Shown piece by piece: positions 5,778 to 23,822 of a DNA stretch of 35,492 nt. Source of the DNA: an uncultured Oscillospiraceae bacterium (lineage in GTDB: Bacteria > Bacillota_A > Clostridia > Oscillospirales > Oscillospiraceae); NCBI GenBank assembly GCA_900754605.1, contig CAAEDK010000110.1, positions 1 through 35,492 on the forward strand, given 5' to 3'. Positions within the stretch are counted from its first letter, which is position 1. The number at the start of each line of letters is the position of its first letter. Made by a program: the position numbers and the translations under genes. The notes beneath the pieces are model-generated. The model saw nothing but the letters and a program-made list of their open reading frames with translations. It had not been told where the DNA came from and did not search any database.

Positions 5778-5825
5778 TCGTTTGACCACAGAAATACCAC
5801 AGACGGATTTCTGCTTTAACTACTT

Positions 5826-5861
5826 GACGGGTACCCCCTTTCAGGAGTGCCCGTCTTTTTT
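5826..5861 (+). terminator. Second hairpin with T tract
   Basis: GACGGG pairs with CCCGTC around a loop with partial extra pairing, followed directly by TTTTTTG on the plus strand. It may be a backup terminator or the remnant end of another unit. Confidence 0.5.
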
Positions 5862-6001
5862 GTTTGTGCCAATACTGTTTAGCGCCTCCCAACTAATCTC
5901 GTTGGAAGTTGCCGCTATCTCTCAAACAGTCGCATTTTCAGCATAAATCTTCTCTTATATTTTCTGAGAATATTTCTTGACCACAAATTTGCCCATAGAC
6001 A

Positions 6002-6043
6002 GAAAAAATCAGCCCGCCGGATGGGCACCTTCCATCGGCGGGC
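6002..6043 (-). terminator. Rho-independent terminator of the minus-strand integrase unit
   Basis: Read on the minus strand, GCCCGCCGATGG pairs with CCATCCGGCGGGC (one bulged base) and is followed by TGATTTTTT. It lies just after the stop codon of the integrase pseudogene at 6059. Confidence 0.8.
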
Positions 6044-6058
6044 CGGTTTTGCAACATT

Positions 6059-7227: not shown

Positions 7228-8393
7228 AGCTTCAACTCCTCTTCAAAGATATTTTTAAGAAATTCCTCTACGATCTCAGCCGCCCGCTTTTGTATATCCG
7301 TAGTGGTGTGGGTAGGTGTCTTGGGCGAACGCCGACCTGGTATGTCCCAGGATTCCAGACAGAGTCTTTACATCTACACCAGATGCCAACGCATGGGTGG
7401 CAAAAGTGTGGTGCAGACCATGAAACCGGATATCAGGCAGCTCCGCCCGTTTTAACAGGGCTTTCAGCCGATCATAGGCAGTACTCGGGTGGGTAGGCTG
7501 TTCTGGTTTCCACGGATGGGGGAAGATCCATTCCGTCAGAGCGGACTTTTTCCTCTCCCGGAGCAATTCTACAGTACTGGGCGGCAGGGTGATCGTTCTG
7601 GCACCAGCTGATGTCTTGGTATCCCAAGTAGTCAGTTTTCCGCCACGCTCCTCATGTACAGCGCGGCAAATCTTGAGCCTTCCATCATCTGCATCAAAGT
7701 CCCTCCACTGGAGGCCGCAGATCTCACCTCGCCGCAGTCCGGTTGTCAGTTCTGTATAGAAGAAGTCATACCAGACGGCATCCTCCCGTATAATCTCCAC
7801 AAATCGTTCCAACTGCTCATCCGTTAAAATTTGTTTTGCCTCCCCCAGTGCTTCATGGAGCATGGAGTGAATCCCACGGACAGTACTGCTGGCAAGCACT
7901 CTCCTGTGGTTCGGTTTCCCTGACGAGCCAGCGTATCATATAACTTTTTAATGTCTTTTCCGGTTATCTGAGTGATTGGCTTGTCTCCCATAAAGGGAAC
8001 AATGTGGTTCCGCACGGTACCTTCATATCGTCTCAAGGTAGAGGGGCGAATGTTAGGAGCTATGTTTTTCAACCATTGCTCCAGCCACTGGCCCAGTGCC
8101 ATCCGACTCTCCTCAGTCAGCTCGACACTCTGATACACCTCAATACTCTGCCGGAGCTTAACTGTCAGTTCCTTCTGGATATCAGTATAGATATAGCGGA
8201 AGATGGACTCACCGTTCTCTTTGTGGCCCACTACGGGATGTGCCTTGAAATTAGGGACGGCTGGTTCACACACGTAGTCCCTCGGACACCGTTCGGCGCA
8301 CATCGGCCCGGCTGTGGCTGAGCCCCCCTGGATCAAAGGCAGGGCAGTCTTATAACGGATGGCCTTGCAGCGGAGCTCACCGGCCATGTCCAA
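7218..8393 (-). pseudogene. Second tyrosine integrase, pseudogene with two frameshifts
   Basis: The 5' part holds an arm region (KENGESIFRYIYTD, KELTVKLRQSIEVYQ) and the SAM-like core-binding domain (MALGQWLEQWL, RPSTLRRYEGTVRNHIVPFMG, GKDIKKLYDTL). A frameshift near LARQGN, at about 7910-7925, moves to the frame encoding the catalytic domain (TELTTGLRRGEICGLQW). Box II reads HGLHHTFATHAL, so the conserved HxLRH arginine has become His. A single-base loss just after the catalytic tyrosine codon (DTY) shifts the tail. Restoring the base gives THTTTDIQKRAAEIVEEFL and a stop at 7218-7220, inside the start of the neighbouring integrase. The 5' boundary is uncertain: residues before about 8270 look degraded. 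Both integrases having lost the same arginine is noted in the findings. Confidence 0.8.
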
Positions 8394-8772
8394 AGTCTCC
8401 TGTATCTTTCAGCTTTCGTGGCCGTTGACCGTCTCTTTAAAAAGTATCTACGCACCGTGCTCTGACTGCGCCGCATAAGCCAGCAGAAAAACCAACCTCC
8501 TGGATCTAATTTAAAAGTTATCCGACAAAAAGTGATTCCCGCACAAAAAAACACGCCCCATGCCGTCCGAAAATGGAATGGCATGGGGCGCAGCTTTATT
8601 TTATACCGGCCGAGCATAGGCGGAACTATGGTCGGCCCCGGCCCTTGCCGCCGGTGGCTGGATGCGGAGGACAGCACGTCCTCCCCTCTACAGACTCATA
8701 TGGCTGGTTTTCCATCTCACCACAAATATCAAAAAACTGTGAGGATAAAGATAACTGGAATGCAATATGTAC
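8394..8772. other. Intergenic region with no recognisable gene
   Basis: Between the integrase remnant and the GntR gene I see one strong terminator (8544-8590) and otherwise short frames without ribosome binding sites or recognisable motifs. Part of it may be decayed upstream sequence of the integrase element. Confidence 0.5.
8544..8590 (-). terminator. Rho-independent terminator of the gntR gene
   Basis: A perfect 11-bp stem, CGCCCCATGCC with GGCATGGGGCG, is followed on the minus strand by TGTTTTTTTGTG. It lies about 180 nt downstream of the GntR stop codon. Confidence 0.8.
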
Positions 8773-9519
8773 TCAGCGCTCCCTTTGTTCCGGGAGAGGA
8801 ATCACCGAGTTGTTTGCCAACTCAATCCGAAACGCATATTTATCGCCGCGGACAATGGATTTTGTATATTCAATCAGGACATTGCCCTCATAGCTGTATC
8901 GCTCCAAAAGAGTACACGGAACATTGGATGAGATATGCAACAGCGTTCTTTCTTCTGAGCGCGGCATAACAGGCCGGAATTTTTCCGTGGCCCGATCTGC
9001 ATGGAAGTTATACTGTTCTCGCAAAAACTCATATAGAGAGCCGCAGGAGAGCGCCTCCGTGTCCAGCGTCAAGAAACGGCTTTGGGGAAGAAAGGTGGTT
9101 TCCAGCATCAGAGGATACGTCCTGGCCGAGCGGAGCCGGAGCAGTTTATGGAACACTGTTCCCTCCTGATACCCGGTTTCAATCGCCAAAGACTTATCGG
9201 CTTTGACCAGATCATAGTGAATGACAGAATTCTGAATTAGAATATTGCTGCTTTTAAGCGTATCAGTAAACGAGTAGAAATCAGATAGGGGCTGGGTGAA
9301 TACGAACGGCTTAATATAGGTTCCATTACCCTGGACCGAGTAAAGTACACCGGTTTCTTTCAGCATGTTGAGTGCACGCCGGAGAGTGCTACGGCTTGCG
9401 TTATACTTCCGGCACAACTTTTCTTCGGGGGGGAACAGTGAATTTTCCGGATAGAGCCCCGTCTGTATATCACGAAGCATCTCCGTGTAAACGTCTATGT
9501 AGACCGGCCTTTGAGCCAT
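8773..9519 (-). CDS. GntR family (HutC/UTRA-type) transcriptional regulator
   Basis: The 248-aa protein has an N-terminal winged helix at about residues 5-72 (LFPPEEKLCRKYNASRSTLRRALNML, then the wing GVLYSVQGNGTYI). A UTRA effector-binding domain follows at about 95-240 (LLRLRSARTYPLMLETTFLP, the ATEKFRPV region, LLERYSYEGNVLIEYTKSIVRGDKYAFRIEL). The family usually represses sugar or amino-sugar operons and is released by a phosphorylated sugar. The gene is divergent from the kinase-isomerase-glycosidase series starting at 9844. Two inverted repeats in the shared intergenic region are candidate operators. I infer that it controls the galactosamine pathway, with GalN-6-P or a related sugar phosphate as a plausible but unproven effector. 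It has its own promoter and terminator. Confidence 0.9.
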   Translation of the reverse strand: MAQRPVYIDVYTEMLRDIQTGLYPENSLFPPEEKLCRKYNASRSTLRRALNMLKETGVLYSVQGNGTYIKPFVFTQPLSDFYSFTDTLKSSNILIQNSVIHYDLVKADKSLAIETGYQEGTVFHKLLRLRSARTYPLMLETTFLPQSRFLTLDTEALSCGSLYEFLREQYNFHADRATEKFRPVMPRSEERTLLHISSNVPCTLLERYSYEGNVLIEYTKSIVRGDKYAFRIELANNSVIPLPEQRER

Positions 9520-9620
9520 ACCGCACCCCCCGCTTGCCGCTGCTTCACGTCACTTCAGATAGCCAATCAACCCATAGATCCTTACAAGTATTTTTAGAGA
9601 CTATTACTATTTTGCCAATT

Positions 9621-9649
9621 ATTTTATCATATGGGGAGTGAATTTACAA
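9621..9649 (-). promoter_or_regulatory. gntR promoter
   Basis: On the minus strand TTGTAA (-35, 9644-9649) and TAAAAT (-10, 9621-9626) are separated by exactly 17 bp. The palindrome GGAAATATTTCC sits immediately upstream at 9650-9661. Confidence 0.6.
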
Positions 9650-9675
9650 GGAAATATTTCCCTGTTAAAAAAAGA

Positions 9676-9732
9676 GATACAACTCAGGTCAGTTGTATCG
9701 ATTCAAAATGCATACAACTGAGGGTAGTTGGC
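9676..9732. promoter_or_regulatory. Paired GntR operator candidates
   Basis: Site 1 (9676-9699) is a perfect inverted repeat, GATACAACT, 6 bp, AGTTGTATC. Site 2 begins at 9712 with ATACAACT, 6 bp, AGTTG and loses symmetry at its last bases. The two sites have the same spacing and lie 35 bp apart, between the divergent genes, as expected for a self-regulating UTRA repressor. Confidence 0.65.
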
Positions 9733-9843
9733 CTATTTTACCCAAAACCATAGACAAAATTAGCAAAAAACTATACAGTATATACAGAAGCAGCCGATCC
9801 GCACGCGTTATTACAGTTAAAAGTACCACATGGAGGAGCCAAT

Positions 9844-10779
9844 ATGAAGCAATGGTATGTCGGAGTAGACGGCGGAGGCACAAAAACCGCCGTCGCGATC
9901 TCCACCGCTGACAGTGTTCCGATCCAAACCATGACCTACCCGACCTGTTCCTATCAGTCCATCGGTATTCCGGAATCCGTTGCCCTGATCACGAAGGTGG
10001 TACGGGAGGCCCTCTCCGGGGGCGGGGTAAGCCCACAGGATTGTGCCGGGTGTTGCGTGGGTATGCCCTGTTATGGCGAAAACCCAGCAAATGACCGGGA
10101 GATCGTTCGCCTGCTGACGGATGCTCTGACTCCAGTCCCAGTGTATGTTGTGAATGACGGTGAAGTTGGCTGGGCTGGATCCCTCGCCTGTGGGGAGGGA
10201 ATCCATATTGTTTCCGGCACAGGTTCTATCGCATTTGGACGCGGGTGTGACAAAGAATTTGCCCGCTGTGGGGGGTGGGTGGAGTTTTTTGGGGATGAGG
10301 GCTCCTGCTACTGGATTGGTCGGCAGGGAATGAGTCTGTTTTCCAAAGAGGCCGATGGCCGGTTGCCGAGGGGTCCGCTCTATGATCTAGTCCACGGGGA
10401 GTTTGGCCTGACGGAGGACTACCAGTTTATTGATCGGATTGTCCGGGAATTTGCCCCCTATCGGGAAAAAGTCGCGGGGTTCCAGCGGTACGTCCTACAG
10501 GCCGCCCGGGCTGGCGACACAGCCGCTGCCGCGCTGTATGAAACGGCTGCGCTTGAGTTGGCGCTCATGATTCGCACGCTCAAGGCAAAACTTCGTTTCT
10601 CCGCCGAGCCCATCAGCGTTTCCTACTCCGGCGGTATCTTCCATGCCGGAGAATTCATCCTGGCCCCTCTCCGTAAAAAGGCCGAAGAGCTGAACTGCAT
10701 ACTTTGTGAACCCAAATACTCCGCGACCGAGGGCGCGCTCATGTTGGCCATGGAACGGTTCCCTTTATCACCCAGTTAA
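9844..10779 (+). CDS. BadF/BadG/BcrA/BcrD-type sugar kinase (predicted galactosamine/amino-sugar kinase)
   Basis: The 311-aa protein belongs to the ASKHA superfamily. VGVDGGGTKT at residues 6-15 is the phosphate-1 motif, VVNDGEVGWAG resembles the catalytic-Asp segment of N-acetylglucosamine kinases, IVSGTGSIAFGR is phosphate-2, and VSYSGGIFHAG is the adenosine motif. Family members phosphorylate amino sugars such as GlcNAc. It is the first gene of the plus-strand series and is followed at short distance by an AgaS-like isomerase/deaminase. With the secreted GalNAc deacetylase and galactosaminidase downstream, I infer that it phosphorylates imported galactosamine at O6. GlcNAc/MurNAc kinase activity cannot be excluded from sequence. 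GGAGG lies just before the ATG. No membrane segments are seen. Confidence 0.8.
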   Translation: MKQWYVGVDGGGTKTAVAISTADSVPIQTMTYPTCSYQSIGIPESVALITKVVREALSGGGVSPQDCAGCCVGMPCYGENPANDREIVRLLTDALTPVPVYVVNDGEVGWAGSLACGEGIHIVSGTGSIAFGRGCDKEFARCGGWVEFFGDEGSCYWIGRQGMSLFSKEADGRLPRGPLYDLVHGEFGLTEDYQFIDRIVREFAPYREKVAGFQRYVLQAARAGDTAAAALYETAALELALMIRTLKAKLRFSAEPISVSYSGGIFHAGEFILAPLRKKAEELNCILCEPKYSATEGALMLAMERFPLSPS

Positions 10780-10801
10780 ATGTCCGAAGGAGAATGATGT
10801 T

Positions 10802-11839
10802 ATGTTTTTGACCGAAGCTGAGATTCTGGATACCCCGCTGTCCCTGAACTACACCTGCCAATACTTTGAGAAGAACAAAAAAAATCTGGAGCAGTTCTTC
10901 CAGGAAAACCAGCAAAAGAAGTTTACCATTTTGGGCTGCGGCTCCAGCTATATGCTGGCGAAGAGCACAGCATCTCTGTTTGCGTCGCTCCCGGGAACCA
11001 GCGCAAATGCGATCGCCGCCGGCGACTACATTGTGGACCCTCTATTCTGGTATGAGACGGTGAAGGGCAGCATCGTGCTCCTGCTTTCACGGTCCGGAAA
11101 GACCTCTGAAATGGTATGGGCCCTGAAGCACATCAAAGAGGCTCACGGATGTCCAGCGGTGTCCATCACAACGGAGGATGGGAATGATCTGATGCCCTTG
11201 TGCGACCTGAACCTGACGCTGAACTGGTGCCATGATGACAGTGTCTGCCAGACCCGAACTGTCACGAACCTGTATGCCTCCACACTGCTTCTGGCGGCGG
11301 AATACGCAAGGGATGACCGCCTCCGAGAGAGTGTCCTGGCAGCCATGCGGGAGAGCACCTCGTTTCAGCTGAAGTACCGGCCGGTGCTGGCCGAGATCGC
11401 AAACCTTGATTGGGACAATGTGGTGGTGCTGGCGGACGGCCCCATTTGCGGCATCGCGGAGGAGGGCGCCCTCGCCTTTACGGAGATCTCCATGCTGACA
11501 GGCCGCTATTTCCATCTGCTGGATTACCGTCACGGGCCTATCGTGGTCAGTGGAAAACGGACTCTGACTCTCGCGTTGCTGCGGCCCGGTGAAGAAAAGC
11601 TCCAAAGCGCTATGATGAAAGATGTGATTCAGCGCGGCGGCCCTGTGGTCACGATTTCCCACTGCACAGAAAATAGGTACGACGCGGCAGCCCATATTCA
11701 GATTCCGGAAGTCGGCGAGTTCGCCGCATGGGGCATTCTGTTCATCTATGTCGCGCAAATGACAGCTCTGCTGAAAGCAATTGCCCTAGGCGGAAACCCC
11801 GACCAGCCCAAGGGCCTGGACGCCTACATATCCCTGTAA
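10802..11839 (+). CDS. agaS: SIS-domain sugar isomerase, AgaS-like (predicted GalN-6-P deaminase/isomerase)
   Basis: The 345-aa protein has two SIS domains. The first shows GCGSSYMLAKS near residue 43 and LLSRSGKTSEM near residue 95. The second includes GPICGIAEEGALAFTEIS and DYRHGPI. This matches AgaS and related GlmS-isomerase-like proteins, which convert galactosamine-6-phosphate to tagatose-6-phosphate plus ammonia. The ATG at 10802 is chosen over a longer frame because AAGGAG lies 9 nt upstream and the extension overlaps the kinase gene out of frame. Its place between a sugar kinase and tagatose-bisphosphate aldolase subunits fits the assignment. Other SIS sugar-phosphate isomerases, such as fructosamine-6-P deglycases, are the main alternative. 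Confidence 0.78.
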   Translation: MFLTEAEILDTPLSLNYTCQYFEKNKKNLEQFFQENQQKKFTILGCGSSYMLAKSTASLFASLPGTSANAIAAGDYIVDPLFWYETVKGSIVLLLSRSGKTSEMVWALKHIKEAHGCPAVSITTEDGNDLMPLCDLNLTLNWCHDDSVCQTRTVTNLYASTLLLAAEYARDDRLRESVLAAMRESTSFQLKYRPVLAEIANLDWDNVVVLADGPICGIAEEGALAFTEISMLTGRYFHLLDYRHGPIVVSGKRTLTLALLRPGEEKLQSAMMKDVIQRGGPVVTISHCTENRYDAAAHIQIPEVGEFAAWGILFIYVAQMTALLKAIALGGNPDQPKGLDAYISL

Positions 11840-11981
11840 ATTTTTCTTACAAGGATCGTTTGCCTTGTCTGAGAGAAACGATTTGAAAACAGAGGGGAGA
11901 GGATAGCTCCAAATATGAAACTGCCGGATCAGGCGTCGTTAACAGGATAAGGACGGACTACAAAGGAGGAATAGAAGGGAT

Positions 11982-14300
11982 ATGAGAAATCGAAGGAAAG
12001 CTGTTTCGCTTCTAACGGGCCTACTCGTGACGGCCCAGTTATTTCCAACCGCGGCGCTTGCGGCAGACTCCAGCGAGTCCGCATTGAACAAGGCCCCCGG
12101 ATATCAGGATTTTCCCGCCTATTACAGCGACAGTGCGCATGCCGATGACCAGGTGACTCACCCGGACGTAGTTGTCCTGGAAGAACCGTGGAACGGCTAT
12201 CGCTATTGGGCCGTTTATACGCCCAACGTGATGCGGATCTCCATCTACGAAAACCCGTCCATCGTTGCCTCCAGCGACGGAGTGCATTGGGTAGAACCGG
12301 AGGGGCTTTCCAATCCCATTGAGCCGCAGCCGCCCAGCACCCGCTACCACAACTGCGACGCTGATATGGTCTATAACGCGGAATACGATGCCATGATGGC
12401 CTATTGGAACTGGGCGGATGACCAGGGCGGAGGCGTTGGGGCCGAAGTCCGGCTGCGGATTTCCTATGACGGCGTACATTGGGGCGTCCCCGTGACTTAT
12501 GATGAGATGACCCGCGTATGGTCGAAGCCCACCTCCGACGCGGAGCGTCAGGTTGCGGATGGAGAGGATGACTTCATTACCGCCATTGCTTCTCCAGACC
12601 GCTACGATATGCTCTCTCCCACTATTGTCTACGATGACTTCCGGGATGTGTTCATCCTGTGGGCCAACAATACCGGCGACGTGGGGTATCAGAATGGTCA
12701 GGCGAACTTCGTGGAAATGCGTTATTCGGACGACGGGATCACCTGGGGTGAGCCAGTCCGCGTCAACGGCTTCCTGGGGCTTGACGAGAATGGGCAGCAG
12801 TTGGCCCCCTGGCATCAGGATGTCCAGTATGTTCCAGATTTGAAGGAGTTTGTTTGTATCTCCCAGTGCTTTGCCGGTCGAAATCCGGATGGCTCTGTCC
12901 TGCACCTGACCACATCAAAGGATGGAGTCAACTGGGAGCAGGTGGGCACCAAGCCCCTGCTGTCCCCCGGGCCAGACGGCAGTTGGGATGATTTCCAGAT
13001 CTATCGCTCCAGTTTTTACTATGAGCCAGGCAGTTCCGCCGGAGATGGTACCATGCGCGTCTGGTACAGTGCCCTGCAGAAGGACACCAATAACAAGATG
13101 GTCGCGGATTCCTCCGGGAATCTGACCATTCAGGCCAAAAGTGAGGATGACCGCATCTGGAGGATCGGCTATGCGGAAAACAGTTTTGTTGAGATGATGC
13201 GCGTGCTGCTGGATGACCCCGGCTACACGACGCCCGCCCTGGTTTCCGGCAATTCCCTTATGCTGAGTGCTGAGACCACTTCCCTTCCCACAGGGGATGT
13301 CATGAAGCTGGAAACCAGTTTCGCGCCTGTGGACACCTCTGATCAGGTCGTGAAATATACCTCCAGTGATCCGGATGTGGCGACGGTGGATGAGTTTGGA
13401 ACCATTACAGGCGTTTCTGTCGGTTCAGCGCACATCATGGCGGAGACCCGGGAGGGCCTGTCCGACGACCTTGAATTTGCAGTGGTGGAGAATCCGTACA
13501 CGCTGATTCCCCAGTCCAATATGACGGCAACCGCCACCAGCGTCTACGGCGGGACGACGGAGGGCCCCGCCTCCAATGTCCTCGATGGAAACGTCCGCAC
13601 AATATGGCATACCAACTATGCTCCCAAAGATGAACTGCCGCAGAGTATCACCGTTTCCTTTGACCAGCCCTATACCGTCGGCCGCTTCGTCTATACCCCA
13701 CGTCAAAACGGGACAAATGGCATAATTTCGGAGTATGAGCTGTACGCCATCCACCAGGACGGCAGCAAGGACCTAGTCGCCTCCGGCTCAGACTGGGCGC
13801 TCGATGCCAAGGATAAAACCGTGAGCTTTGCACCGGTAGAAGCCGTCGGCCTGGAGCTCAAGGCGATTGCCGGCGCAGGTGGGTTCGGTACTGCCGCCGA
13901 ACTCAATGTGTATGCGTATGGTCCAATCGAGCCTGCGCCCGTATATGTCCCGGTGGATGACCGGGATGCTTCCCTGGTGTTTACGGGTGCATGGAATAGC
14001 GACAGCAACGGAAGCTTTTATGAAGGGACGGCCCGTTATACCAACGAGATCGGCGCGTCCGTGGAGTTCACATTTGTGGGGACGGCCATTCGGTGGTATG
14101 GTCAAAATGATGTAAATTTCGGCGCTGCGGAGGTATACGTGGACGGCGTTCTGGCAGGGGAGGTAAATGTGTATGGGCCGGCGGCGGCTCAGCAGCTTCT
14201 ATTTGAGGCGGACGGTCTGGCCTATGGGAAGCATACCATCCGCATCGTCTGTGTGTCTCCGGTGGTTGACTTCGACTATTTTTCGTATGTGGGAGAATAA
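11982..14300 (+). CDS. Secreted alpha-GalNAc (blood-group A) deacetylase with Big2, CBM32 and C-terminal beta-sandwich module
   Basis: The 772-aa protein has a signal peptide (RNRRK, then a hydrophobic stretch, cleavage probably after ALA27). The N-terminal catalytic part, about residues 35-400, has propeller-like repeats of the SSDGVHW/SYDGVHWG/SDDGITWG/SKDGVNW type. A bacterial Ig-like Big2 domain follows at about 420-505, then an F5/8-type C (CBM32) domain at about 507-645 and a 110-residue beta-sandwich module from Val658. Candidate metal/active-site residues are Glu90 (YENPS), His123 and Asp126 (HNCDAD) and His278 (WHQDV). Subtracting 26 gives 64, 97, 100 and 252, the positions I remember for the F. 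plautii GalNAc deacetylase. The neighbouring GH36 enzyme has the same tail module, so the two act together on mucin or blood-group glycans outside the cell. The start has AAGGAGG upstream. Confidence 0.88.
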   Translation: MRNRRKAVSLLTGLLVTAQLFPTAALAADSSESALNKAPGYQDFPAYYSDSAHADDQVTHPDVVVLEEPWNGYRYWAVYTPNVMRISIYENPSIVASSDGVHWVEPEGLSNPIEPQPPSTRYHNCDADMVYNAEYDAMMAYWNWADDQGGGVGAEVRLRISYDGVHWGVPVTYDEMTRVWSKPTSDAERQVADGEDDFITAIASPDRYDMLSPTIVYDDFRDVFILWANNTGDVGYQNGQANFVEMRYSDDGITWGEPVRVNGFLGLDENGQQLAPWHQDVQYVPDLKEFVCISQCFAGRNPDGSVLHLTTSKDGVNWEQVGTKPLLSPGPDGSWDDFQIYRSSFYYEPGSSAGDGTMRVWYSALQKDTNNKMVADSSGNLTIQAKSEDDRIWRIGYAENSFVEMMRVLLDDPGYTTPALVSGNSLMLSAETTSLPTGDVMKLETSFAPVDTSDQVVKYTSSDPDVATVDEFGTITGVSVGSAHIMAETREGLSDDLEFAVVENPYTLIPQSNMTATATSVYGGTTEGPASNVLDGNVRTIWHTNYAPKDELPQSITVSFDQPYTVGRFVYTPRQNGTNGIISEYELYAIHQDGSKDLVASGSDWALDAKDKTVSFAPVEAVGLELKAIAGAGGFGTAAELNVYAYGPIEPAPVYVPVDDRDASLVFTGAWNSDSNGSFYEGTARYTNEIGASVEFTFVGTAIRWYGQNDVNFGAAEVYVDGVLAGEVNVYGPAAAQQLLFEADGLAYGKHTIRIVCVSPVVDFDYFSYVGE

Positions 14301-14357
14301 AGCGATTCTAGCAGGCGACTTTCAACACAAAGGATTATAGAGAAGGAGGACTCGGAA

Positions 14358-17300
14358 ATGCGTGGTAAAAAGTTCATATCACTCACGCTCAGTACGATGC
14401 TGTGTCTGCAGCTCTTGCCCACCGCTTCTTTTGCGGCGGCGCCTGCAACGGACACCGGCAACGCAGGACTGATTGCAGAAGGTGATTATGCCATTGCCGG
14501 CAATGGCGTCCGCGTCACTTATGACGCGGACGGGCAGACAATCACTCTGTACCGCACAGAGGGATCTGGGCTCATCCAGATGAGCAAGCCTTCTCCATTG
14601 GGAGGGCCAGTGGTTGGAGGGCAGGAGGTTCAGGACTTCAGCCATATTTCATGTGATGTGGAGCAGAGCACCAGCGGAGTGATGGGCAGCGGTCAGAGAA
14701 TGACCATTACCTCTCAGAGCATGAGCACGGGCCTAATTCGTACCTATGTGCTGGAGACCTCTGATATCGAGGAGGGTGTGGTATATACTGCAACATCCTA
14801 TGAGGCAGGAGCTTCTGATGTGGAAGTGTCTTGGTTCATTGGCAGTGTGTATGAGCTTTATGGTGCGGAAGATCGTATCTGGAGTTATAACGGCGGCGGT
14901 GAGGGGCCGATGCACTACTATGATACGCTTCAAAAGATTGACCTGACCGACTCTGGCAAGTTCAGTAGGGAGAATAAACAGGATGACACGGCTGCAAGTA
15001 TTCCTGTGTCAGATATTTACATTGCTGATGGAGGGATTACCGTTGGCGATGCTTCTGCAACCAGGAGGGAGGTACATACTCCGGTTCAGGAAACCAGTGA
15101 TTCAGCTCAAGTTTCTATCGGGTGGCCAGGCAAAGTCATTGCCGCCGGAAGCGTGATCGAAATTGGTGAGAGCTTTGCTGTAGTCCATCCGGGTGACTAT
15201 TATAACGGCTTGAGAGGTTACAAAAATGCAATGGATCACTTGGGCATGATTATGCCTGCACCTGGGGATATTCCTGATAGCAGCTATGATCTCCGATGGG
15301 AAAGCTGGGGCTGGGGGTTTAACTGGACGATCGACTTAATAATCGGCAAATTGGATGAACTTCAGGCAGCCGGAGTCAAGCAGATCACTTTGGATGATGG
15401 TTGGTATACCAATGCAGGAGACTGGGCCTTAAATCCAGAAAAGTTTCCAAATGGAGCCTCCGATGCGTTGCGGCTGACAGATGCAATTCATGAGCATGGT
15501 ATGACTGCACTCCTTTGGTGGAGACCTTGTGACGGCGGGATCGATAGTATACTCTATCAGCAACACCCTGAATATTTCGTTATGGATGCAGATGGAAGAC
15601 CTGCAAGGCTTCCTACTCCTGGTGGTGGGACCAATCCCAGCTTGGGATATGCACTTTGCCCTATGGCGGATGGTGCGATTGCAAGCCAAGTTGACTTTGT
15701 AAACCGTGCAATGAATGATTGGGGGTTCGATGGCTTCAAGGGAGATTATGTGTGGAGTATGCCTGAATGCTACAATCCTGCACATAACCACGCCTCGCCA
15801 GAAGAATCCACTGAAAAGCAATCCGAGATATACCGCGTCTCTTATGAGGCTATGGTGGCCAACGACCCCAATGTGTTCAATTTGTTGTGCAACTGCGGTA
15901 CGCCCCAGGACTACTATAGTTTACCATATATGACACAGATTGCTACGGCTGACCCCACTTCTGTGGATCAAACAAGGAGACGCGTGAAAGCCTACAAGGC
16001 ACTGATGGGAGATTATTTCCCTGTTACAGCCGACCACAATAACATCTGGTATCCAAGTGCCGTCGGTACGGGCTCTGTTCTCATTGAAAAACGTGACCTT
16101 AGCGGTACTGCCAAGGAAGAATATGAAAAATGGCTTGGGATTGCGGATACAGTTCAGTTGCAGAAAGGCCGGTTTATTGGCGATCTTTACAGTTATGGTT
16201 TTGACCCTTACGAAACCTATGTGGTGGAGAAAGACGGGGTTATGTACTATGCCTTCTACAAAGATGGGAGCAAATATAGCCCCACTGGCTATCCAGATAT
16301 TGAGTTGAAGGGGCTAGATCCAAATAAAATGTATAGGATTGTTGACTATGTCAATGATCGTGTCGTGGCAACAAACCTGATGGGTGATAACGCTGTATTC
16401 AATACACGTTTTTCCGACTATCTACTGGTTAAAGCGGTGGAAATTTCGGAACCGGATCCAGAACCTGTTGACCCTGATTATGGTTTCACCTCTGTTGATG
16501 ACAGAGACGAGGCTCTTATTTACACAGGGACATGGCATGATGACAACAACGCATCTTTCAGCGAAGGGACTGCACGTTATACCAACAGTACGGATGCTTC
16601 GGTTGTATTCTCCTTTACTGGAACTTCCATTCGCTGGTATGGCCAGAGGGATACCAATTTTGGCACGGCAGAAGTTTATTTGGACGATGAACTGAAAACA
16701 ACAGTTGATGCGAATGGGGCCGCAGAAGCAGGCGTATGTCTTTTTGAAGCGCTTGATCTTCCGGCTGCCGAGCATACCATTAAAATTGTGTGCAAGAGCG
16801 GAGTGATTGATATTGACCGCTTTGCATATGAAGCTGCTACCCTTGAACCCATCTATGAAAAGGTCGATGCGCTCTCGGATCGGATCACTTATGTTGGGAA
16901 TTGGGAAGAGTATCACAACAGCGAGTTCTACATGGGAAACGCAATGCGCACAGACGAAGCCGGCGCTTATGCTGAACTGACTTTCCGTGGTACAGCCGTA
17001 CGCCTGTATGCAGAGATGAGCTTCAATTTTGGCACTGCAGATGTCTATTTAGACGGAGAGTTAGTGGAAAACATAATCCTATACGGCCAGGAAGCAACTG
17101 GGCAGCTAATGTTTGAGCGTACGGGACTGGAGGAAGGAGAACATACCATTCGCCTTGTACAAAACGCCTGGAACATCAATTTGGACTATATTTCTTATCT
17201 ACCAGAGCAAGATCAACCAACGCCGCCGGAGACGACGGTTACTGTTGATGCAATGGACGCCCAACTGGTGTATACAGGCGTATGGAATGATGACTATCAT

Positions 17301-17594
17301 GACGTCTTTCAGGAAGGAACCGCCCGTTATGCCATTAGTGCCGGCGCCTCGGTCGAGTTCGAATTTACTGGAAGCGAAATCCGTTGGTATGGACAAAATG
17401 ATTCCAACTTCGGTGTTGCCAGCGTTTATATCGATAATGAGTTTGTGCAGCAGGTAAATGTTAACGGAGCTGCGGCTGTGGGAAAGCTTTTGTTTCAAAA
17501 GACTGATCTACCAGCCGGTTCGCACACGATCCGCATTGTGTGCGATACTCCGGTTATTGATTTGGACTATTTGACTTATACCACTAACGCATAA
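14358..17594 (+). CDS. Secreted GH36 galactosaminidase (blood-group A GalN-releasing) with three C-terminal modules
   Basis: The 1078-aa protein has a signal peptide (cleavage probably after ASFA26). A beta-sandwich domain leads to a clan GH-D TIM barrel at about residues 300-570: RWESWGWGFNW, QITLDDGWY, LLWWRP, GFDGFKGDYVW with the likely nucleophile Asp463, and ATADPTSVDQTRRR with the likely acid/base Asp532. Three copies of a roughly 110-residue module follow, starting near 713, 836 and 963, each with a GTxIRWYG-like and VYxDGEL-like core. The module also occurs at the end of the deacetylase 57 nt upstream. This matches the F. plautii galactosaminidase that removes alpha-GalN after deacetylation; ordinary alpha-galactosidase activity is the alternative. 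AAGGAGG precedes the ATG. Base composition is visibly more AT-rich than in the deacetylase gene. Confidence 0.88.
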   Translation: MRGKKFISLTLSTMLCLQLLPTASFAAAPATDTGNAGLIAEGDYAIAGNGVRVTYDADGQTITLYRTEGSGLIQMSKPSPLGGPVVGGQEVQDFSHISCDVEQSTSGVMGSGQRMTITSQSMSTGLIRTYVLETSDIEEGVVYTATSYEAGASDVEVSWFIGSVYELYGAEDRIWSYNGGGEGPMHYYDTLQKIDLTDSGKFSRENKQDDTAASIPVSDIYIADGGITVGDASATRREVHTPVQETSDSAQVSIGWPGKVIAAGSVIEIGESFAVVHPGDYYNGLRGYKNAMDHLGMIMPAPGDIPDSSYDLRWESWGWGFNWTIDLIIGKLDELQAAGVKQITLDDGWYTNAGDWALNPEKFPNGASDALRLTDAIHEHGMTALLWWRPCDGGIDSILYQQHPEYFVMDADGRPARLPTPGGGTNPSLGYALCPMADGAIASQVDFVNRAMNDWGFDGFKGDYVWSMPECYNPAHNHASPEESTEKQSEIYRVSYEAMVANDPNVFNLLCNCGTPQDYYSLPYMTQIATADPTSVDQTRRRVKAYKALMGDYFPVTADHNNIWYPSAVGTGSVLIEKRDLSGTAKEEYEKWLGIADTVQLQKGRFIGDLYSYGFDPYETYVVEKDGVMYYAFYKDGSKYSPTGYPDIELKGLDPNKMYRIVDYVNDRVVATNLMGDNAVFNTRFSDYLLVKAVEISEPDPEPVDPDYGFTSVDDRDEALIYTGTWHDDNNASFSEGTARYTNSTDASVVFSFTGTSIRWYGQRDTNFGTAEVYLDDELKTTVDANGAAEAGVCLFEALDLPAAEHTIKIVCKSGVIDIDRFAYEAATLEPIYEKVDALSDRITYVGNWEEYHNSEFYMGNAMRTDEAGAYAELTFRGTAVRLYAEMSFNFGTADVYLDGELVENIILYGQEATGQLMFERTGLEEGEHTIRLVQNAWNINLDYISYLPEQDQPTPPETTVTVDAMDAQLVYTGVWNDDYHDVFQEGTARYAISAGASVEFEFTGSEIRWYGQNDSNFGVASVYIDNEFVQQVNVNGAAAVGKLLFQKTDLPAGSHTIRIVCDTPVIDLDYLTYTTNA

Positions 17595-17628
17595 TGTTTC
17601 ATTCCAAATAAAATAGGAGGTTACTCAT

Positions 17629-19011
17629 TTGGATAAAATTACATTTCTTGGCGCAGGCAGTACCGTCTTTGCAAAAAATGTTTTAGGCGACTGCATTACG
17701 ACGGATGCTATGCGCGAGTTTGAGTATGCGCTCTATGACATTGACCATCAGCGGTTGGAAGAGTCCTATATGATGCTTTCTAATATTAACCGGAACTCTA
17801 ACGACGGAAAGGCTAAGGTCGTCAAATATGCAGACCGGCTGGATGCTTTACGTGGAGCAAAATACGTCATTAACTGCATTCAAGTGGGAGGATATGACCC
17901 CTGTACGATTACAGACTTTGAAATTCCCAAAAAATATGGACTGCGCCAGACGATCGGAGATACGCACGGCATCGGTGGAATGTTCCGGGCACTGCGCACC
18001 ATCCCTGTAATGTTGGACTTTGCGAAAGACATGGAGAAGGTCTGTCCTGATGCACTCTTCATCAATTATACAAACCCCATGTCCATGCTATGCTTGGCGA
18101 TGTTCCGAGCCAGTTCTGTCAATACAGTTGGTCTGTGCCACTCCCACCAGGCCTGTGTACCTGAACTCCTCGCCGAGCTTGGCATGCCCTGGGACGGCGT
18201 TTCTTACAAGATTTCGGGCATCAACCACATGGCCTGGCTATTAGAGATTAGCCGCAACGGCGAGGATCTCTATCCCATCATCCGCAAGCGTGCCCAGGAG
18301 GGACCAATTTACGCCCCCACGCTTGCATTGCGTGAGTTACATCCTGAGTATGCGGACAGAATTCCGTCAGTGGCCGAGCAGTTTACTCCTGATAATCATC
18401 ATGATATGGTTCGCTTCGAAATCATGAAGCAGTTCGGCTACTTCGTCACAGAATCCAGCGAGCACAGCAGCGAATATTACCCCTGGTTCATCAAAAAGGA
18501 CCATCCTGAGCTTATCGACCGCTTTCACATCCCGCTGGATGAGTACCCCCGCCGTTGCCGCGATCAGATTGCGCGGTGGAAGCAGCAGGCCGAGCATCTG
18601 GTCCACAATGAGAACCTGACCCACACAAGGAGCAGCGAGTACGCCGCCGGCATCATCGAGGCACTGGAGACCGGCAGAACCTTTGGATTTGCTGGTAACG
18701 TTCTCAATACTGGGCTTATTGACAACCTGCCCTTCGATGCCTGTGTGGAAGTCTCCTGTATGGTAAACGAGGGTCATCTCTCCCCCTGCCACATGGGGCC
18801 GCTTCCCAATCAGCTCGCCGCGCTGAATCGGCGGCAGATCGAGGTGCACCAGCTCACCGTAGATGCCGCTCTCACCAGGAAGAAGGAGTACATCTATCAG
18901 GCCGCCATGCTGGACCCCCATGCCGGGAGCGAACTGACCATCGATGAGATCCGCAGCCTTGTGGACGACCTCATACAGGCCCACGGCGACTGGTTGCCGG
19001 AGTATCATTAA
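17629..19011 (+). CDS. melA: GH4 family NAD/Mn-dependent glycosidase (alpha-galactosidase MelA-like)
   Basis: The 460-aa protein starts at a TTG preceded by AGGAGG at 8 nt spacing. ITFLGAGSTVF at the N-terminus is the Rossmann NAD-binding loop. GLCHSHQ (Cys170) and GINHMAWL (His200) are the GH4 metal-binding residues, and the CHS form is typical of alpha-galactosidase-type members. These enzymes oxidise C3 of the sugar using NAD+ with Mn2+ and cleave by elimination. There is no signal peptide, so it acts in the cytoplasm. It lies between the secreted GH36 enzyme and a GPH symporter. It could therefore hydrolyse imported alpha-galactosides or alpha-galactosaminides. Substrate cannot be fixed from sequence: alpha-galacturonidase or alpha-glucosidase remain possible. 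Confidence 0.85.
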   Translation: MDKITFLGAGSTVFAKNVLGDCITTDAMREFEYALYDIDHQRLEESYMMLSNINRNSNDGKAKVVKYADRLDALRGAKYVINCIQVGGYDPCTITDFEIPKKYGLRQTIGDTHGIGGMFRALRTIPVMLDFAKDMEKVCPDALFINYTNPMSMLCLAMFRASSVNTVGLCHSHQACVPELLAELGMPWDGVSYKISGINHMAWLLEISRNGEDLYPIIRKRAQEGPIYAPTLALRELHPEYADRIPSVAEQFTPDNHHDMVRFEIMKQFGYFVTESSEHSSEYYPWFIKKDHPELIDRFHIPLDEYPRRCRDQIARWKQQAEHLVHNENLTHTRSSEYAAGIIEALETGRTFGFAGNVLNTGLIDNLPFDACVEVSCMVNEGHLSPCHMGPLPNQLAALNRRQIEVHQLTVDAALTRKKEYIYQAAMLDPHAGSELTIDEIRSLVDDLIQAHGDWLPEYH

Positions 19012-19098
19012 ATAAATGCAAGAGCCACAGGGACCCATGCCAAGGTTATTCGCGCTTGCCCCGCAACTCGTTGAGGAAGAAACAAGGAGGGAAATTTT

Positions 19099-20490
19099 GT
19101 GTCTACCGAAGTCGTTAAGGAAGCTAAATTAGAGGAAGAACCAAGGCAATGTACCAAGAAGGAAAAGCTCGGCCACGCAATTGGTGTACTCGGGCATGAT
19201 TCTATGTATACCTTGTGGTCTACCTGGACTACTCCGTTTTTAACGGATATTCTAAAGCTGCCCGCCGGCTTCCTAGCGTTCCTTTTTGGTGGGGCTCGAT
19301 TCTTTGACGCCTTTACCGATATCTCTATGGGTATCATTGCAGACCGTACTAGGAGTAAGTGGGGCCGGTTTCGCCCGTGGCTTCTCCGCTCAGGTCCTCT
19401 TATGGGGATCTGTTTAGCACTCTCTTTCTTTAAGCCCGATATCGGCACCATCGGACTGTGCATTTTTGCAGGTATTATGTATATCATCACAGGCAGTATT
19501 GTGTTTACCTCTGTGGATATACCATTCTGGAGCTTGCCTGCGGCAATGACCAGCAATACGAAAGAGCGCTCGGAAATTGTTGGCTTCACTACCACCGCGT
19601 CCAATACCATTACTGGAATTATTGGATTAGTGATGCCAATGGCACTGGCCTTCTTTGGCGAATTTAACTGGTATGTTTACTTTTTCCTTGCACTTGCTGT
19701 TGCCGTCTGGGGTGTGACCATGTACCTGATTTCCTTCAAGTTGGTACGGGAGCATGTGGTACCAGACGACAGTGAGAAGTTTGAGCTCAAACTGGCACTA
19801 AAAAATATTTTTCAAAACAAGCCCTTGCTCCTGATCCAAATCTCAAATATCTTTTGCCTGCTAGGTATGATGCTGAAAGGCTATCTCAATTATTATTATT
19901 GTGTATATAACTGGGGCAGCCTGGGTTATATGACTGTGCTGAACTTGATTAATCTGGTTGGTATGGTTGTAGGCGCATTGATCTTCACCTTTCTCTCTCA
20001 GCATATTGGGAAAAAGAATTGCATGTTTCTCTTTGCCGGGCTCATGACAATATCCAGCCTCGTTCTCTACTTTGCCGGGTATCATAACGCTATTGTACTT
20101 TTTGCCACATCTTCTGTCTCAACTGTATGCGTTGGAGCTGTCATGGTCTGTGTCAACGCGATGATGATGGATACAATTGAGTATGGCGAATGGAAAACCG
20201 GCCAGCGCAATGAAGCTATGATTACCTCTACCCGTTGCTTCGTGACCAAGTGTGTCATGGCAGTCGCAGGTATCGCTGTTGCCGCTGTAATCGGTCTGAC
20301 TGGCTACATTCCCCAAGAGACCGTACAGCCGGTGAACGTATTAAATTCTTTCCACTTTGTATATACGCTAGTCAGTGCTGGAATTATAATCCTTGCAGTT
20401 GTCCCCATGCTGTTCTATAAGCTGACCGAGAAGCGCCACGCTGAGATCATGGAGGAGTTGGCCGCCCGCAAAGCCAGCAAGACCCAATGA
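19099..20490 (+). CDS. GPH-family (MelB-like) glycoside/sugar:cation symporter
   Basis: The 463-aa protein starts at GTG with GGAGG 8 nt upstream. It has about 12 hydrophobic segments and the GPH signature near the N-terminus: GHDSMYTLWSTWTTPFLTD, then GGARFFDAFTDISMGIIADRTRSKWGRFRPW, where the Asp residues of helix II and the R-x-K-W-G-R-x-R-P loop are typical of MelB. A MDTIEYGEWKTGQRNEA segment occurs in the C-terminal half, as in family relatives. It probably imports the mono- or disaccharide freed by the extracellular enzymes using Na+ or H+. Galactosamine is the inferred substrate from context, alpha-galactosides the alternative. It is the only transporter in the locus; no PTS or ABC sugar importer is seen. 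Confidence 0.88.
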   Translation: MSTEVVKEAKLEEEPRQCTKKEKLGHAIGVLGHDSMYTLWSTWTTPFLTDILKLPAGFLAFLFGGARFFDAFTDISMGIIADRTRSKWGRFRPWLLRSGPLMGICLALSFFKPDIGTIGLCIFAGIMYIITGSIVFTSVDIPFWSLPAAMTSNTKERSEIVGFTTTASNTITGIIGLVMPMALAFFGEFNWYVYFFLALAVAVWGVTMYLISFKLVREHVVPDDSEKFELKLALKNIFQNKPLLLIQISNIFCLLGMMLKGYLNYYYCVYNWGSLGYMTVLNLINLVGMVVGALIFTFLSQHIGKKNCMFLFAGLMTISSLVLYFAGYHNAIVLFATSSVSTVCVGAVMVCVNAMMMDTIEYGEWKTGQRNEAMITSTRCFVTKCVMAVAGIAVAAVIGLTGYIPQETVQPVNVLNSFHFVYTLVSAGIIILAVVPMLFYKLTEKRHAEIMEELAARKASKTQ

Positions 20491-20534
20491 AGAAGTTCTT
20501 AAATTTTATCGTCTGAAAACAGAACGTGCCAATG

Positions 20535-20563
20535 GGGCACCCGGCGGCTATCGCCGGGTGCCC
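20535..20563 (+). promoter_or_regulatory. Strong GC hairpin between transporter and aldolase genes
   Basis: A perfect 12-bp stem, GGGCACCCGGCG and CGCCGGGTGCCC with a GCTAT loop, is followed by TCTGTGC and no T tract. It probably stabilises or processes the mRNA or modulates expression of gatZ, rather than terminating transcription fully. Confidence 0.6.
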
Positions 20564-20588
20564 TCTGTGCAAAAGGAAAGGGGAAGCT

Positions 20589-21911
20589 ATGACCAATCTA
20601 CAAATTCAAAATCCGATTTCTGAACTCTTGCAAAAGCGCGGACAGAATCGTGAAATGGGCCTCTATTCTTGCTGCAGTGCCAACGAGTATGTAATTCGGG
20701 CGGCCCTTCGCCGGGCCAAGGACCGTGATACGGTGGTGCTGGTAGAGGCGACTGCAAATCAAGTGAACCAGAACGGCGGCTATACCGGTATGACCCCGGT
20801 AGCGTTCCGGGCGTTTCTGAACCGTTTAGCTGAAGAGGAAAATTTCCCGATTGACAAACTGTTCTGCGGCGGCGACCACCTGGGTCCGCTGACCTGGACC
20901 CATCTTCCCGAGGCTGAGGCAATGAAAAACGCAGGGGAACTGATCCGCTCCTATGTACTGGCTGGCTTTTCCAAAATACATATTGATACCAGCATGTGCC
21001 TGGCGGACGACGCTCCCAATGAGCGGTTATCGGATGTTGTGATCGCCCACCGCGGCGCCCAACTCTGCCGTATCGCCGAGGAAGCTTTTGCCCAATACAG
21101 TGCGTGGCACCCGGAAGCCCCTGCGCCGGTCTATATCATCGGCAGTGAGGTGCCCATCCCAGGCGGCGCCCAGGAAAATGAGGACAGCGTAACCGTAACC
21201 GCGCCGGAGGACTGCGAAGCCACGCTGTCCACGTTCCAGGCGGCGTTCTGCTCCAATCATTTGGAGGCGGCATGGGAGCGTGTGGTTGCCATTGTGGTGC
21301 AGCCCGGGGTGGAATTTGCCGACGAAAGCGTGATCGAATATGACCGGACGGCCGCCCACAGCCTGACGGAGCATTTAAAGCGGCACCCCAACCTGGTCTT
21401 TGAAGGACATTCCACGGATTATCAGCCGCGGCAATGCCTTCGAAAGATGGTAGAGGACGGGATCGCCATTCTCAAGGTCGGACCAGCTCTGACCTTCGCC
21501 CTCCGGGAAGGACTGTTTGCCCTGGAGCAGATCGAACGGGAATTGTATGGGATGATGGATTTCCCGTGTTCCCATTTTCGTGAGATCCTGGAGCAAGTCA
21601 TGCTGGAGGACCAGGGCCAGTGGGCCAAATATTATCATGGCTCTATGCCGGAGAAGCGGTACGCCCGGGCCTTCAGCTACTCAGACCGGGCCCGGTATTA
21701 CCTGACCAACAGCAAGGTGCAGGGTGCGCTCCGCCTCCTGCTGGATAATTTGAACACAGCAGGCATCCCAATGGCCCTGATCAGCCAGTATATGCCAGTC
21801 CAATACGCCAGAGTCCATGTGGGTATATTGCCTCCCAAGGCTGAAGACCTCCTGATGGACCGTGTGGGGGACTGCATCGACGACTATCTCTATGCGGTAC
21901 TCAGGGACTGA
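20589..21911 (+). CDS. kbaZ: D-tagatose-1,6-bisphosphate aldolase accessory subunit GatZ/KbaZ
   Basis: The 440-aa protein matches the GatZ/KbaZ family: GLYSCCSANEYVIRAALRRA, VLVEATANQVNQNGGYTGM, LFCGGDHLGPLTW, KIHIDTSMCLADD and FEGHSTDYQ. GatZ/KbaZ has a TIM-barrel fold but is required mainly to activate and stabilise the catalytic subunit GatY/KbaY, which follows 52 nt downstream. The ATG at 20589 is chosen because AAAGGGGAAG lies just upstream. A longer frame from 20526 would run through the 20535-20563 hairpin and has no ribosome binding site. The role is the last step of galactosamine or galactitol breakdown, cleaving tagatose-1,6-bisphosphate to DHAP and glyceraldehyde-3-P. GatZ and KbaZ cannot be told apart here; AgaS nearby favours the Kba name. 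Confidence 0.88.
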   Translation: MTNLQIQNPISELLQKRGQNREMGLYSCCSANEYVIRAALRRAKDRDTVVLVEATANQVNQNGGYTGMTPVAFRAFLNRLAEEENFPIDKLFCGGDHLGPLTWTHLPEAEAMKNAGELIRSYVLAGFSKIHIDTSMCLADDAPNERLSDVVIAHRGAQLCRIAEEAFAQYSAWHPEAPAPVYIIGSEVPIPGGAQENEDSVTVTAPEDCEATLSTFQAAFCSNHLEAAWERVVAIVVQPGVEFADESVIEYDRTAAHSLTEHLKRHPNLVFEGHSTDYQPRQCLRKMVEDGIAILKVGPALTFALREGLFALEQIERELYGMMDFPCSHFREILEQVMLEDQGQWAKYYHGSMPEKRYARAFSYSDRARYYLTNSKVQGALRLLLDNLNTAGIPMALISQYMPVQYARVHVGILPPKAEDLLMDRVGDCIDDYLYAVLRD

Positions 21912-21963
21912 AGCAAATCTGGAGAAAGCAAAGCCTTGAATACGGAAAGGGTGGAAATATTAT

Positions 21964-22836
21964 ATGGCACTGGTAAACAGCAGAGGACTTTTGAGGGATG
22001 CCCGTGCAAACGGTTATGCGGTAGGCGCGTTCAATGTAGAAAACATGGAGATGATGCAGGCTGTCATCGCGGCGGCGGAGGCCGAGCACGCGCCGGTCAT
22101 ACTTCAGACGACGCCATCCACATTAAAATACGCGGAGCCAGCAGTCTTCGCGGCCATGGCCCGTGCTATGGCCGGTAAGGCGTCTGTGCCAGTGGCTATG
22201 CACCTGGATCACGGAGACCGGTTTGGACTATGTCAGCAGGCCGCGTCAGACGGTTATACCTCCCTGATGATCGACGGCTCTAAACTGCCGCTGGACGAAA
22301 ATATCGCCCTGGCCCGCAGAGTGGTGGAGATGGCAAGCGGGATGTCTTCCCGGCCTTGTGTGGAAGCGGAGCTGGGGAAACTGGGCGGTAAGGAGGATGA
22401 TCTGGAGGTCAAGCCAGGTGAGGATCTTTACACAGATCCAGGCGAGGCGGCCCGTTTCGTCCGGGAAACGGGAATCGACTCTTTAGCCGTAGCCATTGGG
22501 ACCGCACATGGTTTCTACAAGGGCAAGCCCAGGCTGGCCTTTGAGCGGCTGACTCAGATCCGGGAAGCGGTAGATATCCCCCTGGTGCTCCATGGCTCCT
22601 CCGGTGTCCCGGACGAAGATGTGCAGCGTGCGGTATCCATGGGTGTGTGTAAGGTCAACTTCGCCACGGAGCTTCGGGCCGCCTATACCCAGGCGGTACG
22701 GGACTGTCTGGCTCATGACGCCGCGCTCTACGATCCCAAGAAATATGGGGGCCCCGCGCGGGAGGCCGTCATCTCTCTAGTGCGGCATCGTATAAAAATT
22801 TGCGCTGGTAAAGTTGGCTTGATTGCTCCCTTGTAA
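21964..22836 (+). CDS. kbaY: Class II ketose-bisphosphate aldolase, catalytic subunit GatY/KbaY
   Basis: The 290-aa protein is a zinc-dependent class II aldolase. HLDHGD supplies the catalytic Asp82 and zinc ligand His83. AIGTAHGFYKG supplies His182 and LHGSSGVPD supplies His210, at the positions expected of KbaY. VNFATELR closes the phosphate-binding region. It follows GatZ/KbaZ, so the pair should form tagatose-1,6-bisphosphate aldolase; fructose-bisphosphate aldolase activity is the alternative for the subunit alone. The last residues (AGKVGLIAPL) run a little beyond the usual ICGCAGKA-like end. No clear terminator follows, so transcription may continue into the Mn-catalase gene. No tagatose-6-P kinase lies in the window and must be supplied elsewhere, for example by a phosphofructokinase. 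Confidence 0.9.
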   Translation: MALVNSRGLLRDARANGYAVGAFNVENMEMMQAVIAAAEAEHAPVILQTTPSTLKYAEPAVFAAMARAMAGKASVPVAMHLDHGDRFGLCQQAASDGYTSLMIDGSKLPLDENIALARRVVEMASGMSSRPCVEAELGKLGGKEDDLEVKPGEDLYTDPGEAARFVRETGIDSLAVAIGTAHGFYKGKPRLAFERLTQIREAVDIPLVLHGSSGVPDEDVQRAVSMGVCKVNFATELRAAYTQAVRDCLAHDAALYDPKKYGGPAREAVISLVRHRIKICAGKVGLIAPL

Positions 22837-22990
22837 ATATATATGACCTTTCTTTCCTAATGCGTATCGTATTCTTTTGGTGGTAAAGGTATTTCAATCT
22901 GCCGCCTGTATCATGCAAAACGAACAGAGCCCGCATAGCTTTTCTAAATTGCGGAAAGCTAAACACAACCAATCGGAAGGGGTGATATGC

Positions 22991-23656: not shown

Positions 23657-23770
23657 AAAGCGGCAGGGGCCGTGTGGTCAAGAGTTCTTCTGCTTTATAA
23701 ACCATCCTTTCCCTCAAGCCTTTGCTCCGCAGGGTCCTAATGGGTGCATTTTTATCATAGGCCAAAACAA

Positions 23771-23797
23771 GAGCCGACTTGTCAAACAAGTCGGCTC
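23771..23797. terminator. Bidirectional terminator between Mn-catalase and ABC permease genes
   Basis: A perfect 12-bp stem, GAGCCGACTTGT with ACAAGTCGGCTC around CAA, is followed by TCGTTTTAT on the plus strand and by TTGTTTTGG on the minus strand. It lies between converging genes. Confidence 0.85.
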
Positions 23798-23822
23798 TCG
23801 TTTTATATCCTGCGCCCGTTTG

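Follow-up and report, generated by a model that had tools for sequence, protein, structure and literature searches.

Conversion of the blood-group A antigen to O has been reported for a pair of enzymes from Flavonifractor plautii (PMC11762096): the N-acetylgalactosamine (GalNAc) deacetylase FpGalNAcDeAc (Protein Data Bank, PDB, 6n1a/6n1b; P0DTR4 as cited in PMC11762096) and the galactosaminidase FpGalNase (PDB 9awt, 9ay8, 9ayu and 8x1b; P0DTR5 as cited in the same paper, which names 8x1b as the accession of its FpGalNase structure). The paper reports deacetylation of the A antigen by FpGalNAcDeAc, lists nine active-site residues of FpGalNase and finds its D463A, C513A and D532A mutants to be nearly inactive. 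The pair has been used in universal donor blood work (PMC11762096) and, as described in excerpts of PMC10981661, in work on group A kidneys. The locus considered here lies in a stretch of 35,492 nucleotides from an uncultured Oscillospiraceae bacterium (contig CAAEDK010000110.1, assembly GCA_900754605.1), hereafter the window, and contains two adjacent genes which the initial annotation had assigned to this pair. That assignment is correct: judged from sequence, the two proteins are the already published A-to-H pair in another strain, not a new system, and with a probability put at about 0.97 the locus represents the pathway published for the blood-group A antigen in F. plautii. The two open reading frames (ORFs) lie where they had been placed, as follows.

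11982..14300, plus strand: GalNAc deacetylase FpGalNAcDeAc, ORF of 772 amino acids (aa), near-identical to PDB 6n1a.
14358..17594, plus strand: GH36 alpha-galactosaminidase FpGalNase, ORF of 1078 aa, near-identical to PDB 8x1b and 9awt.

Over the solved region, residues 29-509 of the window deacetylase agree with PDB 6n1a in 479 of 481 positions, leaving two substitutions (counted by eye on the alignment, tag residues left out). The match, of 1118 bits over residues 19-509, spans the catalytic and Big_2 parts, the catalytic domain being homologous over its full length, and the propeller-like domain that had been proposed follows from this near-identity. Low identity to the published pair, or substitution of the metal-binding residues, had been named beforehand as grounds for abandoning the assignment; neither is found, since Glu90, His123, Asp126 and His278, which we take to be the metal-binding residues, are all intact and stand where they had been predicted. 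Presumably they correspond to residues 64, 97, 100 and 252 of a numbering quoted for the published enzyme, which was found in none of the texts consulted; the offset of 26 residues is arithmetically consistent.

The galactosaminidase agrees with PDB 8x1b in 656 of 658 residues (two differences; 1533 bits) and with 9awt in all but four of 672 (1560 bits), both counted by eye, and is near-identical also to the solved chain 9ayu. One of the two differences from 8x1b is P566L, a change that PMC11762096 reports in its own isolate; the window protein has Pro. The published active-site residues (W317, D346, D347, W387, K461, D463, Y464, C513 and D532) are all nine present, with Asp463 and Asp532 at the annotated positions, and the GH36 barrel follows from the near-identity to 9awt and 8x1b together with a match to Melibiase PF02065. 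Scores of 1118 and 1560 bits exclude chance resemblance. The surrounding DNA gives the same picture: window positions 5738-23256 match F. plautii ATCC 29863 (locus L021) in a single block of 17,520 bases at 99.56% identity, which covers the whole gene cluster around the pair and whose right edge is the end of the L021 locus. From this block and the near-identical proteins it follows that the source of the window is F. plautii or a strain very near to it.

Both proteins begin with a hydrophobic, signal-like N terminus, as seen by eye in the translations, in agreement with the signal peptides annotated for them. In the deacetylase this is followed by the catalytic domain (about aa 36-425), a Big_2 domain (428-487), an F5/8 type C domain (516-641) and a C-terminal module (648-772), and in the galactosaminidase by the GH36 core (about aa 44-698) and three tandem C-terminal modules (703-830, 831-951 and 954-1078). 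The C-terminal modules of the two enzymes are of one homologous kind, present once in the deacetylase and three times in the galactosaminidase; with the first galactosaminidase module as query, the other two copies score 129 and 64 bits and the deacetylase copy 132 bits. These shared modules probably hold both enzymes to the same glycan. The secreted, metal-dependent deacetylase would convert the terminal alpha-GalNAc of the A antigen to alpha-galactosamine (GalN), and the secreted GH36 galactosaminidase would then free GalN so that the H antigen remains, both steps having been shown elsewhere. The window itself shows which genes these are, that the residues are intact, that the modules are shared and in what order the genes stand; the enzyme activities are known from published work.

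The deacetylase gene is sparsely spread. The whole sequence finds matches in 33 of 60 genomes of relatives and is full length in one of them, the nearest, F. plautii ATCC 29863 (G001 and G061, which show identical coordinates, are taken as this one genome); in the other 32 genomes the listed matches lie within residues 350-770, mainly in the Big_2, F5/8C and C-terminal modules. At E <= 1e-20 a deacetylase-like domain is found in 8 of 397 genomes and in 5 of 394 genomes of a second set, where F. plautii ATCC 29863 alone is strong. In three of the eight (G078, G163 and G402) the deacetylase-like domains are divergent, GH98 is absent from that place (G402 carries one elsewhere), and a search at E <= 1e-12 turns up no galactosaminidase. 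At L075:4068-8602 two neighbouring genes, one of them for a protein of 1150 aa, encode deacetylase-like domains that have diverged (37% and 33% identity) and keep the Glu/His/Asp/His set; neither gene gives a match to GH98 or GH36. In a further protein, P0278 (1569 aa, 152 members), a deacetylase-like domain with 38% identity and an intact Glu/His/Asp/His set shares the chain with GH31-type domains.

In several relatives the deacetylase is found in a single chain with a glycosidase. A scan limited to one genome per species, and based on two short patterns that will miss divergent relatives, matched 37 stretches, of which three were confirmed: F. plautii, Lachnoclostridium sp. An76 (L022) and Anaerobium acetethylicum (L023). 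A. acetethylicum combines the deacetylase with a GH36 galactosaminidase in one ORF of 1787 aa, and Lachnoclostridium sp. An76 combines it with a GH98 endo-beta-galactosidase in one ORF of 1774 aa (L022:9287-14611). By profile search the deacetylase domain is present in at least 169 of 281 collected proteins, and shares its chain with GH98 in at least 31 and with a GH36 galactosaminidase in at least 10 of these. The counts are lower bounds, the proteins having been drawn from the best 120 of 282 and the best 120 of 139 matches together with 46/46 large proteins of a length-restricted search. The search itself gave 30 GH98 and 11 GH36 chains; P0266 was added (GH98 by Pfam) and the fragment P0156, with only 48 deacetylase residues, was removed. 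Near-duplicates are included: P0224/P0242 and P0241/P0243 are nearly the same protein, and within each of the groups P0248/P0249, P0255-P0257 and P0258/P0259 the lengths are equal and the scores similar. On contigs, deacetylase and GH98 lie in one open frame at L022:9287-14611, L072:6107-11443, L072:11706-19721, L073:5198-9244 and L074:3986-7897. The two L072 genes are adjacent in one genome (G241), both encode deacetylase-GH98 proteins, and they belong to different subgroups.

Fusions of FpGalNAcDeAc and FpGalNase have also been engineered (PMC11762096). Unlike these, the window pair itself is not fused; the at least 10 natural proteins (e.g., P0143, P0167, P0179, P0200 and P0224) share with them the order deacetylase then GH36, and differ in having extra Big_2 and F5/8C domains and, in some, NPCBM or DUF4214. 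With a deacetylase profile built from five sequences, the Glu/His/Asp/His set is intact in all 10 GH36 fusions and in 30 of the 31 GH98 fusions, the exception being P0277, which has Tyr at the place of His123. All nine GH36 active-site residues are kept in 9 of the 10 GH36 fusions, P0200 having Phe for Tyr464. In the GH98 domains, E1184, D1279 and E1334 (numbering of the L022 protein) are invariant in the 27 that could be aligned, of 31, and would be the catalytic residues. Judged on conserved residues, both active sites of the deacetylase-GH98 proteins are plausible.

The GH36 fusions most likely do not go back to one event. On a 49-row tree of deacetylase domains the GH36 label must have been gained or lost four times, and on the quick tree six times, four of them forced by starred branches. 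A single origin, examined as a one-clade tree, was rejected (p-AU 7.1e-9 in the approximately unbiased, AU, test), a p value that is not that of a group named in advance, the grouping having been chosen after the quick tree was seen. Three GH36 fusions (P0232, P0239 and P0247) sit inside the GH98 fusions and others inside unfused proteins; a single group with support of 100/97 is made up of the unfused proteins and four GH36 fusions. The 49-row tree leaves out, by name, P0005, P0006, P0008, P0010, P0156, P0245, P0273, P0274 and P0277-P0281, as well as rows covering fewer than 230 of 390 columns and those whose identity to a retained row of equal label exceeds 90%. Among the deacetylases farthest out, several are joined to GH98, a weak hint that GH98 is the older partner; the hint is weak because the quick and the careful trees differ on the attachment of P0224 and of the GH98 groups, and some distant relatives have other partners. 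The root is unsafe because of long branches.

The GH98 domains of the fusions, such as that of L022:9287-14611, resemble characterised endo-beta-galactosidases (Sp3GH98, 2wmi; Sp4GH98, 2wmg; RgGH98, 7pmo; Clostridium perfringens E-ABase). Unlike the deacetylase-GH98 chains, RgGH98 consists of N-terminal galactose-binding-like, catalytic and C-terminal domains, according to excerpts of PMC8730463, and no word starting with 'deacetyl' occurs in the main text of that paper on RgGH98. The GH98 type was compared with solved chains in three proteins. The L022 domain is closest to Sp3GH98, which is of A/B type (425 bits for 2wmi vs 391 bits for 2wmf); that of P0256 scores higher with the Lewis Y-type chain 2wmh (128 bits) than with 2wmi (71 bits), and that of P0271 scores about the same with both (398 and 395 bits). 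This mixture bears on whether the native target of the deacetylase is broader than assumed, namely any mucin or glycolipid with terminal alpha-GalNAc (e.g., Tn-like or Forssman-like ends), the A antigen being one of several substrates. GH98 parts that are not uniformly of A/B type (P0256 and P0271), and the more than one kind of carbohydrate-binding-type module attached, would suit such a target. It nevertheless appears unlikely: fusion to GH98 is frequent among relatives of the deacetylase, the GH98 enzymes characterised so far have type 2 blood-group A, B or Lewis Y antigens as substrates (excerpts of PMC8730463), and the L022 domain is closest to A/B-type Sp3GH98.

The fusions also raise the question of whether the deacetylase is tied to the galactosaminidase at all. 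It could instead be a general partner of mucin glycosidases, serving an exo route in F. plautii, in which GH36 frees GalN, and an endo route in Lachnospiraceae and others, in which a tethered GH98 would release the trisaccharide in one piece for import, deacetylation coming either before or after this cleavage. The fusion counts given above, with metal residues intact in 30/31 and 10/10 chains, argue for this, as do the genomes: among the four sampled genomes with deacetylase-GH98 proteins (G062, which is An76, G241, G246 and G225), three (G062, G246 and G225) show no galactosaminidase at E <= 1e-12. At a looser cut-off two partial matches, both weak and about 100 residues long, appear in G062. 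In G246 the neighbours of the fusion gene are genes for a Gfo/Idh/MocA oxidoreductase, two solute-binding proteins and an ABC permease; in G225 they are those for an oxidoreductase and one solute-binding protein, beyond which the contig (10.7 kb) ends. The best solved match of the G246 oxidoreductase reaches 62 bits, with none close, so that a GH109-type label for it would be a guess. By analogy with Ruminococcus gnavus, in which release by RgGH98 and import of the trisaccharide are reported (excerpts of PMC8730463 and PMC10154618), this setting fits endo-release and trisaccharide import with deacetylation added. On the other side, G241 holds a galactosaminidase (62% identity at E <= 1e-12), P0277 has Tyr in place of His123, the genomes are of unreported completeness, the G225 contig is short, the GH98 parts are not all of A/B type, and the root of the tree is uncertain. 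Moreover, Lys788 of RgGH98, a residue conserved in Sp3GH98, contacts the N-acetyl group of GalNAc (excerpts of PMC8730463); an amino group might bind poorly there, and the deacetylated sugar would perhaps be a poor substrate unless the contact differs. Weighing these points, the general-partner role has about an even chance. It does not compete with the published A-to-H pathway as the explanation of the window pair.

A wider proposal is put forward more tentatively and at somewhat less than even odds: that the A-antigen deacetylase is a mobile catalytic module which does not depend on its partnership with the galactosaminidase and perhaps predates it; that in Lachnospiraceae-like bacteria it is tethered to GH98 and makes a deacetylated A trisaccharide which is imported whole; and that deacetylase and galactosaminidase became fused in nature more than once, as engineers did later. 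No natural fusion of the deacetylase with GH98 or with the galactosaminidase was found described in the literature searched, a partial survey outside which the founding 2019 study lies. Rahfeld 2019 or a related patent reportedly tested homologues of Clostridium tertium (under the name Ct5757) and of Robinsoniella peoriensis; if so, some fusions may already have been known to those authors. A literature search for Ct5757 returned only papers unrelated by title. Novelty, if any, lies with the fused relatives, which are predicted from sequence alone.

The other genes of the cluster around the window pair are as follows.

8773..9519, minus strand: GntR/UTRA regulator, divergent from the cluster (PF00392, PF07702).
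9844..10779, plus strand: BadF/BcrA-family kinase, probable GalN kinase by family (PF01869).
10802..11839, plus strand: SIS-domain protein, probable aminosugar-phosphate deaminase/isomerase (PF01380).
17629..19011, plus strand: GH4 NAD-dependent alpha-galactosidase-type enzyme (PF02056/PF11975), no signal peptide apparent by eye.
19099..20490, plus strand: GPH-family cation symporter, probable GalN importer by family (TIGR00792, 317 bits, above the cut-off of 231).
20526..21911, plus strand: GatZ/KbaZ-like tagatose-1,6-bisphosphate aldolase subunit (PF08013, 575 bits; TIGR02810, 517 bits, below the cut-off of 569).
21964..22836, plus strand: class II ketose-bisphosphate aldolase, GatY-like (PF01116; TIGR00167, 305 bits, above the cut-off of 216).

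On the plus strand the order is thus BadF kinase, SIS protein, deacetylase, galactosaminidase, GH4 enzyme, GPH symporter, GatZ-like subunit and class II aldolase, and the minus-strand regulator faces this run. The SIS gene probably starts at the ATG at 10802, behind GAAGGAG, rather than at the listed GTG at 10706. The GH4 protein scores 613 bits with PRK15076 (cut-off 486), its best solved relative being 3fef (140 bits), and the class II aldolase scores under the cut-offs of the GatY-specific models. The cluster is probably one for the use of GalN: to go by their families, the GPH symporter would import GalN, the BadF-type kinase would phosphorylate it, the SIS enzyme would deaminate and isomerise the product to tagatose-6-phosphate, and GatY/GatZ would cleave tagatose bisphosphate made by a presumed further kinase. 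No match to the nagA/agaA family was found among the cluster proteins scanned, as expected if deacetylation is extracellular.

Several points weigh against this picture. Two nagA genes over cut-off lie elsewhere in the F. plautii ATCC 29863 genome, so that outside deacetylation is not the sole possible route; they also led us to reject the idea of a genome without an intracellular deacetylase and hence dependent on outside deacetylation. The cluster lacks a tagatose-6-phosphate kinase, and in ATCC 29863 no member of the 1-PFK family was found over cut-off (best 92 vs 216 bits; 6-phosphofructokinases were not searched). The kinase (72 bits with NagK_SO3507, cut-off 370) and the SIS protein (84 bits with GlmD, cut-off 580; 72 bits with the AgaS family, cut-off 529) score far below the cut-offs of named families, and their substrates are therefore inferred.

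Beyond the aldolase gene, at 22877-23656, lies a manganese-catalase-like ferritin-fold protein under the NCBIfam cut-off, and a plus-strand frame of 1257 aa at 23439-27212, which overlies an FtsX-type permease gene of 888 aa on the minus strand (23823-26489), is probably a shadow frame. Just left of the cluster, two minus-strand ORFs (6284-7899) match phage integrase; the second has an identical counterpart in ATCC 29863, and the two may be signs of an insertion hotspot. Farther left, at 1578-5629, are two overlapping genes that match GajA (931 bits) and GajB (803 bits) of the Gabija anti-phage system in PADLOC, adjoined by two recombinase-type genes (100-1454). Neither of the two Gabija-type genes is found in L021, the part of the ATCC 29863 genome to which that search was limited; as the match to ATCC 29863 also stops at 5738, the strains differ there.

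For the published pair, the window adds its genomic setting in another strain and a coherent predicted cluster for uptake and breakdown. Natural single-chain relatives would serve as ready-made fused A-to-O enzymes, and the deacetylase-GH98 relatives would supply deacetylase domains working beside an endo-glycosidase. For the bacteria themselves, the fused relatives would mean a second way to claim blood-group A sugars, and, if the proposal of a tethered deacetylase is true, the deacetylated A trisaccharide would be a private sugar, perhaps unusable by competitors with GalNAc-specific enzymes.

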